Assembly (NCBI GenBank): GCA_934454635.1
Contig: CAKSFR010000005.1
Coordinates: 1-64,000, forward strand
Direction of reading: 5' to 3'
Source: an uncultured Ruminiclostridium sp.
GTDB lineage: Bacteria > Bacillota > Clostridia > Oscillospirales > Ruminococcaceae
Length of the DNA: 64,000 bases
The position numbers and the translations under genes are program-made. Every line of letters begins with the position of its first letter. Position 1 is the first letter of the stretch. The notes below the pieces were generated by a model that worked only from the letters and a program-made list of their open reading frames with translations, searched no databases and was not told the origin of the DNA. Shown piece by piece: positions 52,601-53,558 of the stretch.

Positions 52601-53558
52601 CATTACCGCCTTTTGCTGTTACGGTGCCGCCATTTATAACGACATTTGAACATCCACCATTATAACCGCAACCGATTCCTGCGCCGCTACCACCGCCTAT
52701 CGCAGTCACATTACCGCCGCTTACAGTAATATTTGAACCGTTTCCCACGCCGCCGCCAAGCCCCGCAGCGTACTCACCGCCCTTGGCAACTATATTTCCG
52801 CCTTTTATTTCAATATTTGAGGCGTTGGATAGACCGCTGCCGATTCCTGCGCCGCCTGTGCCGCCTGTCGCTTCAAGCGAGCCTGTGCCGTTCGCTTCTC
52901 CCTGAATAATAAGCTTTCCCTTATCCTCGGAAATATAATCGCCATTTTTATGCAGACCTGCGCAGTACAATCCGCTTTTCAGCACATTAACCGTGTCGTC
53001 CGCAAGCGTTATTGTTACATTGCCTGTGCTGTTGTCAGCGATCTTTATCGCAGCGGTATTTTCAATCGCCGAAACGTCGATATCCACTCCCGCAAGGGTT
53101 ATATTCGCATTCACGTCGTCCGCGATCTCAATGTGTTCCGCAGTCGTCGCACCCGAAATAGTCAGCGGCGTATCGGTCAGTATTTCTATAATGTTGTTTG
53201 TAAAAGTATAGTCCGTGCCAATCGCGCCGCCCGTGACTGTGAGATCCGAAGGCCCCCGCAGCACCAAATGAATCGTTGCGTCTTTCTGGATATTATATCC
53301 AGCCAGCGTTTCGTCATCTTCAAGAATTTTCCCCGCAAACATGAGTCGCTGACAATCTGCGGGAATACCCTCTTTTTCACTTATTTTCGTTTTAACGTCT
53401 GCAATTCTGTCACCCGGTTCAACTTCCAGAGTAATATGTTTTCCCGTCAGCGTTTTGACGAATATCTGCATAGCCGAAGCGGATATCGCCAGCGCAAATG
53501 TAAGCATTATTGATACAGCTGCCGCGAAGAAAATCCTCGCTATTTTTTTAATCTCCAT
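49668..53558 (-). CDS. secreted, wall-anchored surface protein with an N-terminal ubiquitin domain
   Basis: This is a 1296-residue protein. Residues 1-29 are a signal peptide ending ISASA. Residue 30 is Met1 of a ubiquitin domain (30-101): MQIFVKTLTGKHITLEVEP, KEGIPADCQRLMFAGK, YNIQKDATIHLVLR. By hand it shares about 53 of 72 residues with human ubiquitin, keeps Lys 6, 11, 27, 29, 33, 48 and 63, but has GPSD instead of the final Gly-Gly. Two ~379-residue copies of a glycine-rich beta-helix module (GGNIVAKGG, ISGGNVIATGG) follow, as in Cthe_2159-like carbohydrate-binding domains. Then come cysteine-rich repeats (CTTCGRKYG, CAVCKR, CVVCGE), a Thr/acidic linker, a beta domain, and NPPTG plus membrane segment and RKKR, a sortase-type anchor. 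ATG 53558 follows GGGAGG. Confidence 0.9.
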   Translation of the reverse strand: MEIKKIARIFFAAAVSIMLTFALAISASAMQIFVKTLTGKHITLEVEPGDRIADVKTKISEKEGIPADCQRLMFAGKILEDDETLAGYNIQKDATIHLVLRGPSDLTVTGGAIGTDYTFTNNIIEILTDTPLTISGATTAEHIEIADDVNANITLAGVDIDVSAIENTAAIKIADNSTGNVTITLADDTVNVLKSGLYCAGLHKNGDYISEDKGKLIIQGEANGTGSLEATGGTGGAGIGSGLSNASNIEIKGGNIVAKGGEYAAGLGGGVGNGSNITVSGGNVTAIGGGSGAGIGCGYNGGCSNVVINGGTVTAKGGNDGVGIGGFDGGYCNIIISGGSVKAESGGNDVSVIGSSKYSAVTPTLADGTTPVYLFTIPNPDDKPVEIDGAAYTPINHKGIDPADGKLYAYLTGDFHTVKVGDTAARYNYNNTNNSFEEVGTAFKVTPTVSGEALAYGTDFTYPASDGKLNILSDKAITIANVDRTAATSDCIEIPNGVNANITLAGVNIDVSAIAMTAAIKIADNSTGNVTITLADDTVNVLKSGYCRAGLQKNGDYISEDKGKLIIQGETNGTGSLEAIGGEFGAGILGSDIFKASNIEIRGGNIVAKGGSAAAGIGGGYNGGCSNITISGGNVIATGGDNGAGIGGDCYGGCSNITISGGNVIATGGNNSAGIGGGLRGSCSNITISGGTVTATGGGLGAGIGSCRDDCSNVIISGGSVKAESGVLCANTIGNYSGAVTPTLADGTTPVYLFTIPNPDDKPVEIDGAAYTPINHKGIDPADGNLYAYLTGKTHLVKVGDAETHYHFINGAFVEGERDTVYSADQKGHWYACITEENCQIKFDYEEHSGTPATCTEYAKCTTCGRKYGSKLPHNYSAEWLSDADNHWHECSECADKTDIAAHISSGAPTETEDEICAVCKRVLNPSLGHVHSAHLTYVPETAASCTKNGFKAHYECACGKLFADANALNEITSTDIVIAASGKHGATEIRNKVAPTKDTAGYTGDTVCVVCGETLVRGTVIPPYGGYNPGAAATTTTAATTTTTATEPDEIEPEDDAEDLGDDTLSEPENEPFIKGDNGKIGWDVILDKISGAREGDTIDIDMNGTTELPKDILKEIKGKDITLVLDMGGGFAWEINGNGVTAPRDIDMGVSKGANIPVKVINAVTGEFGYISITLEHDGEFGFKAELRVDLGKRNKGLFANLYYYLGEDKSELMGCGKIDKNGKTKLEFTHASEYVIVIDDYDHTAKPADGTDGEVITVPTDDEDGNPPTGVTLSLAAVLIAGAAAAAFRKKRV
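53256..53471 (-). other. ubiquitin domain coding segment
   Basis: These 72 codons encode residues aligned to ubiquitin 1-72. Substitutions include T12H, S20G, Q40C, I44M; Leu8, Arg42, Ala46, His68, Val70 and Arg72 are kept. The preceding signal peptide suggests cleavage right at Met1. Confidence 0.9.

Follow-up and report, generated by a model that had tools for sequence, protein, structure and literature searches.

A eukaryote-type ubiquitin domain at the predicted mature N-terminus of a probable wall protein from an uncultured Ruminiclostridium, and its sparse relatives with predicted export in many phyla

Textbooks treat ubiquitin as belonging to the interior of eukaryotic cells. The ThiS and MoaD proteins and the bacterial ubiquitin-like conjugation proteins have the same beta-grasp fold, but they are cytosolic, carry a Gly-Gly end and resemble ubiquitin little in sequence. 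Much closer to the protein described here is BfUbb, the product of ubb in Bacteroides fragilis, on whose target there is a later report. Two papers describe BfUbb as a secreted ubiquitin with a mature form of 76 residues, which is found in the culture supernatant and ends in Cys (PMC3352274, PMC5705921), and one of them reports that it binds human E1 in vitro (PMC3352274). According to PMC5705921, the nematode Globodera rostochiensis also secretes a ubiquitin, which serves it as an effector.

BfUbb and the protein studied here are alike in having a eukaryote-type ubiquitin, a signal peptide ending at ubiquitin residue 1 (predicted in our case) and no terminal Gly-Gly; BfUbb is present in only some strains, a patchiness shared by the class described below. 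However, BfUbb is a free 76-residue protein. Our ubiquitin, in contrast, forms the N-terminal part of a beta-helix protein of 1,296 residues that is probably anchored in the wall, and some relatives of our protein, unlike BfUbb, carry ubiquitin as an autotransporter passenger. The Globodera effector likewise combines a signal peptide with ubiquitin and is aimed at other cells, but it is eukaryotic, has a short C-terminal extension and is unanchored. Among the papers listed by searches of open-access literature, a scope that leaves most subscription papers and all preprints outside, were those on BfUbb but none describing ubiquitin borne by an autotransporter or S-layer protein or anchored in the wall. 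Public annotation already labels individual proteins 'ubiquitin family protein' or 'ubiquitin-like protein'; as domain matches they are thus not new, but the pattern they form seems to lack a description in the literature searched.

The window analysed is a stretch of 64,000 nucleotides from an uncultured Ruminiclostridium sp. (contig CAKSFR010000005.1). The program-called open reading frame of its ubiquitin gene (Table 1) opens at a TTG at 53702 on the minus strand, but the true start is likely to be the ATG at 53558, which has a good ribosome-binding site, GGGAGGT, 4 bases before it.

Table 1. Features of the ubiquitin gene in the window
Feature	Position	Strand	Basis
Whole gene (1,296 aa), coding for signal peptide, ubiquitin, beta-helix body and anchor-like tail	49668..53558	-	
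Ribosome-binding site GGGAGGT, ATG 4 bases downstream	53563..53569	-	Sequence
Predicted Sec signal peptide, residues 1-29, end ...AISASA	53472..53558	-	Hydrophobic core, (-3,-1) rule
Ubiquitin domain, residues 30-101 = ubiquitin positions 1-72	53256..53471	-	Pfam, phmmer, identity, AlphaFold2
GPSD replacing ubiquitin residues 73-76 (LRGG), short link to body	53244..53255	-	Sequence
Modelled part of beta-helix body, residues 106-450	52209..53243	-	PF18889 Beta_helix_3, AlphaFold2
Predicted sortase-type NPXTG anchor: NPPTG, hydrophobic stretch and FRKKR	49674..49754	-	NF033846 Rumino_NPXTG

The predicted signal peptide ends in ASA exactly at residue 29/30, which would place ubiquitin Met1 (residue 30, base 53471) at the mature N-terminus, as the preliminary description had proposed. 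The loss of the Gly-Gly tail was equally evident: GPSD occupies ubiquitin positions 73-76 and is followed by 1,191 further residues. From ubiquitin chemistry, a domain without Gly75-Gly76 would not be conjugable through its own C-terminus. PF18889 (Beta_helix_3) matched six stretches over the whole protein. The tail has an NPPTG motif, a hydrophobic stretch and a basic end, and the NF033846 Rumino_NPXTG model matched residues 1269-1295 with 20.7 bits (E 0.00038), just missing its cut-off of 23.5; this probable anchor would agree with the earlier assignment as a wall protein. Divergent from the gene, at 53875-58883 (+), lie genes for STAS, MatE with a C-terminal extension, a methyltransferase, a HAMP-SpoIIE phosphatase and a HATPase, which by their domains form a predicted signalling cluster of the partner-switching type; the SpoIIE match is to the phosphatase domain. 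Elsewhere in the window, 34706-36577 (+) encodes an AbiA-family abortive infection protein, a phage-defence gene (TIGR04499, 2.9e-209).

The domain itself aligns with human ubiquitin without gaps, and a recount of the roughly 53 identities first noted gave exactly 53 of 72; 56 of 72 residues are shared with the Trichomonas-type ubiquitin. The PF00240 match (7e-26, 90.2 bits; curated cut-off 25.4) rules out a chance likeness. All seven lysines, Leu8, Arg42, Val70 and Arg72 are retained, with Ile44 changed to Met and Gln40 to Cys, just as originally listed; in several close relatives Met replaces Arg42 and Ile44. Binding to host receptors and acceptance of ubiquitin on the lysines, both raised in the preliminary description, are hypothetical. 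With phmmer, human ubiquitin chains in the PDB matched the domain at about 6e-29. The top-scoring single-ubiquitin chain was 5xy3_m (108.0 bits, versus about 102.5 bits for human), which PMC8860606 identifies as belonging to the Trichomonas vaginalis ribosome (5XY3). An AlphaFold2 model of residues 30-450 (421 residues) had a mean pLDDT of 90.9, and its ubiquitin part lay 0.4-0.5 A from several solved (human) ubiquitin chains over 72 residues, in keeping with the predicted fold. An origin among ThiS/MoaD proteins, the alternative named beforehand, was rejected: only ubiquitin-type Pfam families matched over the domain and all 50 structure matches listed were ubiquitins, the tree described below having been built without ThiS/MoaD rows. 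These proteins share the beta-grasp fold only, whereas the window domain is 74% identical to ubiquitin and is predicted to be exported.

Relatives of the beta-helix body were taken from the best 120 of 5,334 listed proteins. Seven of them (P0242, P0243, P0244, P0246, P0247, P0248 and P0255) have signal peptide, ubiquitin and body all as in the window protein, and their ubiquitins are identical to the window domain at 62-69 of 72 residues. Since these orthologues lie on other contigs with the same layout, an assembly chimera is ruled out. In others, for example P0250, P0268 and P0279, a signal peptide is joined straight to the same type of body without ubiquitin; by eye, the signal peptides of the ubiquitin-free relatives are like that of P0295. 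P0295, L155 and L157 do have ubiquitin between signal peptide and body, of an ancestry different from that in the window: P0295 has 7 of 8 Trichomonas-type diagnostic residues, and L155 and L157 group with L080, L025, L061 and L063 in the ubiquitin tree. A single clade for the ubiquitins of beta-helix proteins was rejected (p 0.006, the group having been defined after tree inspection). Ten rows of the body tree had ubiquitin; of 19 ubiquitin-free rows chosen for it, five were dropped because the start motif was missing, leaving 14. Over these 24 rows the presence of ubiquitin changes 4 times, 2 of the changes being forced by well supported branches. Ubiquitins of different ancestry at the same junction, together with the four changes, indicate that the domain was placed or exchanged there more than once. 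It may have been gained, or it may have been exchanged by recombination at the signal-peptide junction; the body tree is compatible with either. Among the matches listed, the few body relatives with names, which bear on the gut spore former of the preliminary description, came from Oscillospiraceae or Ruminiclostridium bins, with one more from [Bacteroides] pectinophilus. Within the window family, ubiquitin was not consistently more conserved than the body.

A first protein search for wider relatives was dominated by polyubiquitin; the eukaryotic-type relatives are polyubiquitins or ribosomal-protein fusions and, unlike the window protein, have no signal peptide. One genome per GTDB species was scanned; this gave 257 relatives, and the 80 with the best scores were examined. 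The scan used six search words, one of which, MQIFVKTL, contains Met1, so that Met1 conservation among the 80 is partly selected. Further genomes were drawn with the Pfam profile, which leaves Met1 and Gln2 uncovered and therefore provides a fairer set: it comprised 40 loci, 36 of them matching, 7 already among the 80 and 29 new, six of the latter being near-identical Fibrobacter copies. L090, L091, L092 and L158 were weak in the genome search and had no profile match. To call signal peptides we applied a simple rule based on permitted cleavage sites, not a trained predictor.

By this rule the signal peptide abutted ubiquitin residue 1 exactly in 72 of the 80 loci and in 26 of the 29 new profile-drawn loci (the misses being L150, L153 and L156). 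Residue 1 was Met in 25 of 26 distinct full-length profile-drawn domains. Two signal peptides (L020, L078) fell narrowly outside the rule, L071 has some residues between cleavage site and ubiquitin, and L046, L064, L065 and L077 have no signal peptide; L011 passes, yet its likelier cleavage site is some residues upstream. In L042, from the isolate Frisingicoccus caecimuris DSM 28559, and in L156, ubiquitin is internal in a larger protein. Gly-Gly at 75-76 is kept in 11 of the 80 loci, 3 of which end within 80 residues, and in L027, L041 and L067 the secreted ubiquitin is small, its mature form having 73-81 residues. The E2 (PF00179) and UCH (PF00443) families matched in none of 48 relatives' genomes; the control genomes, too, were without a match, and the result does not imply absence. 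One Clostridia genome (G726) has two exported-ubiquitin genes side by side (L096), their domains 344 bases apart. In genomes of one gammaproteobacterial family the copies (L147, L149, L150) are degraded or strongly diverged, L147 having in-frame stops, which indicates that the gene also decays.

Exported ubiquitin is sparse across many phyla. In six draws, 4 of 398, 3 of 295, 6 of 101, 10 of 111, 11 of 140 and 9 of 247 genomes were over the cut-off, seed genomes included; two of the 4 and one of the 9 were weak matches. The 72 loci fall into 11 named phyla, mainly Bacillota (27) and Pseudomonadota (26), and include two binned methanogen genomes. Exported ubiquitin in Methanothrix-type archaeal genomes (L031, L076) is tentative, having been seen in bins only. 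Many of the 80 loci come from binned genomes, whose labels may err: the proteins of L013 ('cyanobacterium') and L024 ('Bacteroidota') resemble Burkholderiales ones, so these are possibly mislabelled bins. Isolate carriers include Leeia oryzae, Pseudovibrio denitrificans, Pseudohaliea rubra, Rhodoferax lacus, Methylolobus aquaticus, two Dyella, Loktanella and Conexibacter. Ruminococcus albus 7 carries an exported ubiquitin on its finished plasmid pRUMAL01, where the neighbouring genes, by eye, encode exported proteins of like make without ubiquitin. Plasmid carriage as a rule was rejected, R. albus 7 accounting for the 1 match in 72,556 plasmid records, and there was no match in 50,697 phage records or in viral contigs. 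Going by record names and known habitats, the carriers include sea, lake and soil bacteria, so no single host explains all of them.

The eukaryotic ancestry put forward at the outset was upheld: the domain belongs to the ubiquitin family by Pfam, relatives are nearly identical to eukaryotic ubiquitins, and a single bacterial clade was rejected. L041 is identical to human ubiquitin at 71 of 72 residues, and L004, P0192 and P0196 are identical to the Trichomonas vaginalis type at 71 of 72, compared with the 56 of the window domain. Ubiquitin of the P0122 type scored 155.8 bits against 5xy3_m. Identical matches in shorter targets scored 158.1 and 156.9 bits, and one substitution in a 132-residue target gave 154.4 bits; 155.8 bits therefore fits a match over 76 residues without any substitution in a chain of 132.

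The ubiquitin tree left out P0103, P0166 and P0076 (poor or partial) as well as L064, L077, L156, L046 and L065. P0192, P0194 and P0196 were called bacterial from their signal peptides and their likeness to named loci, and the rows labelled 'EUK' include ones with a ribosomal-protein tail. Support was 100/99 for a Trichomonas-type clade of 23 rows and 100/98 for the window clade; many inner forks were left open by an alignment of just 72 columns. Uniting the 113 bacterial and archaeal rows in a single clade was rejected with p 0.0004 (against 14 other rows), and more weakly, with p 0.038, when seven metagenomic rows were removed (against the 7 remaining), arguing against a single bacterial origin. 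It is thus likely that eukaryotic ubiquitin was captured by bacteria more than once. Of the gain from a eukaryote suggested in the preliminary description, the eukaryotic source stands, but the window domain is not a lone case; it belongs to a sparse class in many phyla.

The window clade has 4 of 8 diagnostic residues of the Trichomonas type and 1 of the human type. In the free tree it lay beside the metagenomic polyubiquitins P0129 and P0138, not with the Trichomonas group; joining it to that group was not rejected (AU p 0.23, the groups having been named after seeing the tree). For one group, that of the L004 type, we infer a Trichomonas-like protist as donor. Transfer of other genes from termite-gut parabasalids to endosymbiotic Clostridia is reported in PMC10579323, making such a route plausible.

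Bodies and anchors were scanned in 75 of the 80 loci as mature proteins (without L042, L046, L064, L065 and L077), and the proteins that bear ubiquitin at the N-terminus have differing bodies. Pfam recognised an autotransporter beta-domain in 15, SLH in 3, a dockerin in 2 and a T9SS tail in 2, that is, one of these anchors in at most 22 of 75, and for the rest mostly none; the IPTL-CTERM signal was present in 2 of the 75. Reading of the tails gave sortase-like motifs in L025 (NPETG) and in L061 and L063 (NPQTG). Twelve autotransporters were viewed individually (L001, L013, L019, L021, L024, L028, L034, L043, L056, L057, L059 and L070); the barrel family had no Pfam match in L002, L004 or L005, and L026 had only a weak outer-membrane barrel match. 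L070, L013, L019, L057 and others thus share the autotransporter beta-domain with EstA and NalP, which the window protein does not, and their passenger is ubiquitin in place of, for example, the esterase carried by EstA. In the model of L070 (Rhodoferax lacus), ubiquitin is followed by a flexible link (73-78), then by a helix (85-114) and finally by a beta-barrel (125-393); the barrel side matches EstA, NalP and EspP, the opposite side ubiquitin. Ubiquitin is the sole folded passenger in this model, and no other observation hints as strongly that the displayed cargo is ubiquitin itself.

Selection was estimated with one copy per sequence and loci without signal peptide excluded; 174 of 5,050 pairs had dS 0.1-1.5. 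The median dN/dS was 0.09 over these 174 pairs and 0.125 over 30 disjoint pairs, with a highest value of 0.26; an earlier run that included duplicates and loci without signal peptide had given a median of 0.097 over 231 pairs. Most pairs are distant and may carry the constraint of eukaryotic ancestors, so that only close pairs speak to constraint inside bacteria; their low values (L001-L037 0.08, L003-L023 0.08, L017-L035 0.12) point to constraint acting there.

Core positions were kept at 0.93 in 26 profile-drawn domains. Conservation of the two faces was compared using assigned position sets, and over 21 clusters the Phe4 side (2, 4, 12, 14, 62, 63, 64) was kept at 0.94 compared with 0.66 for the Ile44 side (8, 42, 44, 47, 48, 49, 68, 70). 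The Phe4 side was better kept in 18 of 21 clusters, an exploratory result, since textbook patches were used first and the Phe4 set was then widened by four members added after conservation had been seen. With all 26 domains and near-copies not collapsed, the values were 0.91 and 0.73 (18 versus 8 opposite, p 0.02). NEDD8 showed the reverse, with 0 for the Phe4 side and 1.0 for the Ile44 side. In ubiquitin, strands 1 and 5 are parallel, and Met1, Lys63 and Glu64 lie at the end opposite the C-terminal link; the conserved end would therefore be the distal tip. The end formed by Met1, Gln2, Phe4, Lys63 and Glu64 is a likely binding face, judged from this conservation.

These observations can be arranged as follows. 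Eukaryotic ubiquitin genes would have been captured repeatedly, as the tree tests and the near identity to two eukaryotic types suggest, and the domain would have come to sit exactly between signal peptide and body, judging from members with and without it. Signal peptidase is predicted to expose ubiquitin Met1 as the mature end, and the lineage's own anchor (sortase motif, SLH, autotransporter barrel, T9SS tail or dockerin), recognised in a minority of relatives, is predicted to hold ubiquitin at the surface. Without Gly75-Gly76 there would be no conjugation through its own C-terminus; the better conserved Met1/Gln2/Phe4/Lys63/Glu64 end would point off the anchor and act as the putative binding face. 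Candidate partners of a ubiquitin displayed in this way are protists, animal hosts and rival bacteria. A domain that is repeatedly captured, exported, constrained, without usable Gly-Gly and on varied surface bodies is most simply read as a displayed ligand, and we infer surface display on these grounds. That the eukaryote-type ubiquitin of the window protein is exported and, with the protein anchored in the wall, displayed at its N-terminal tip as a ligand for outside partners and not a conjugated tag, is a proposal in which belief and doubt are for us evenly balanced. The scales tip slightly towards doubt for the general form of this proposal, in which many phyla, possibly including methanogenic archaea, repeatedly captured eukaryotic ubiquitin (once from a Trichomonas-like gut protist) as a tip display domain for any envelope anchor; outside the cell it would be a convergent mimic, recognised as a ligand by way of its Met1/Phe4/Lys63 end.

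The antibacterial activity of BfUbb makes a toxin the first rival. The ubiquitin would then be an effector toxic to related bacteria, shed by proteolysis or acting on contact, which we consider unlikely but stronger than the other alternatives. Among secreted ubiquitins of bacteria, our literature searches showed a tested function for BfUbb alone: according to PMC5705921 its mature 76-residue form inhibits other B. fragilis strains, is cleaved exactly at ubiquitin residue 1 and lacks the terminal glycine. The small secreted ubiquitins among the relatives would suit such an effector, but most relatives, the window protein included, are fused to longer proteins, and no marked release site was noticed on non-systematic inspection. 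The patchy distribution fits a toxin and a displayed ligand alike. Alternatively, ubiquitin could serve as a structural module, a fast-folding, protease-resistant cap that guards the N-terminus or nucleates folding and has no binding partner. Ubiquitin is very stable, its fold begins at residue 1, which would explain the missing linker, and the link from ubiquitin to beta-helix is short in the window model. However, the body relatives P0250, P0268 and P0279 manage without it, ubiquitin is fused to unrelated bodies elsewhere, and in the modelled autotransporter L070 a flexible link sets it apart as a bead of its own. A pure cap would also have no need of the surface residues Gln2, Phe4, Lys63 and Glu64, which are replaced in NEDD8, and we therefore regard a cap as rather improbable, more so than a toxin.

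Recent transfer without function, or eukaryotic DNA contaminating the assemblies, is largely refuted and very improbable. The 4 of 80 loci without signal peptide are perhaps plain eukaryotic or non-exported ubiquitin, and the many binned genomes leave room for contamination, but an exported ubiquitin is borne by the finished plasmid of an isolate, signal peptides of bacterial type, anchors and a Shine-Dalgarno site accompany the domain, dN/dS is low in close bacterial pairs too, and the window gene has seven orthologues.

Display of ubiquitin as a ligand remains our preferred reading. Exported ubiquitins that cross phyla, some apparently as sole autotransporter passengers, would make the role of ubiquitin outside cells testable in culturable bacteria. 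The class would also offer a transfer from protist to bacterium whose donor type can be named, along with an instance of one insertion point used more than once.
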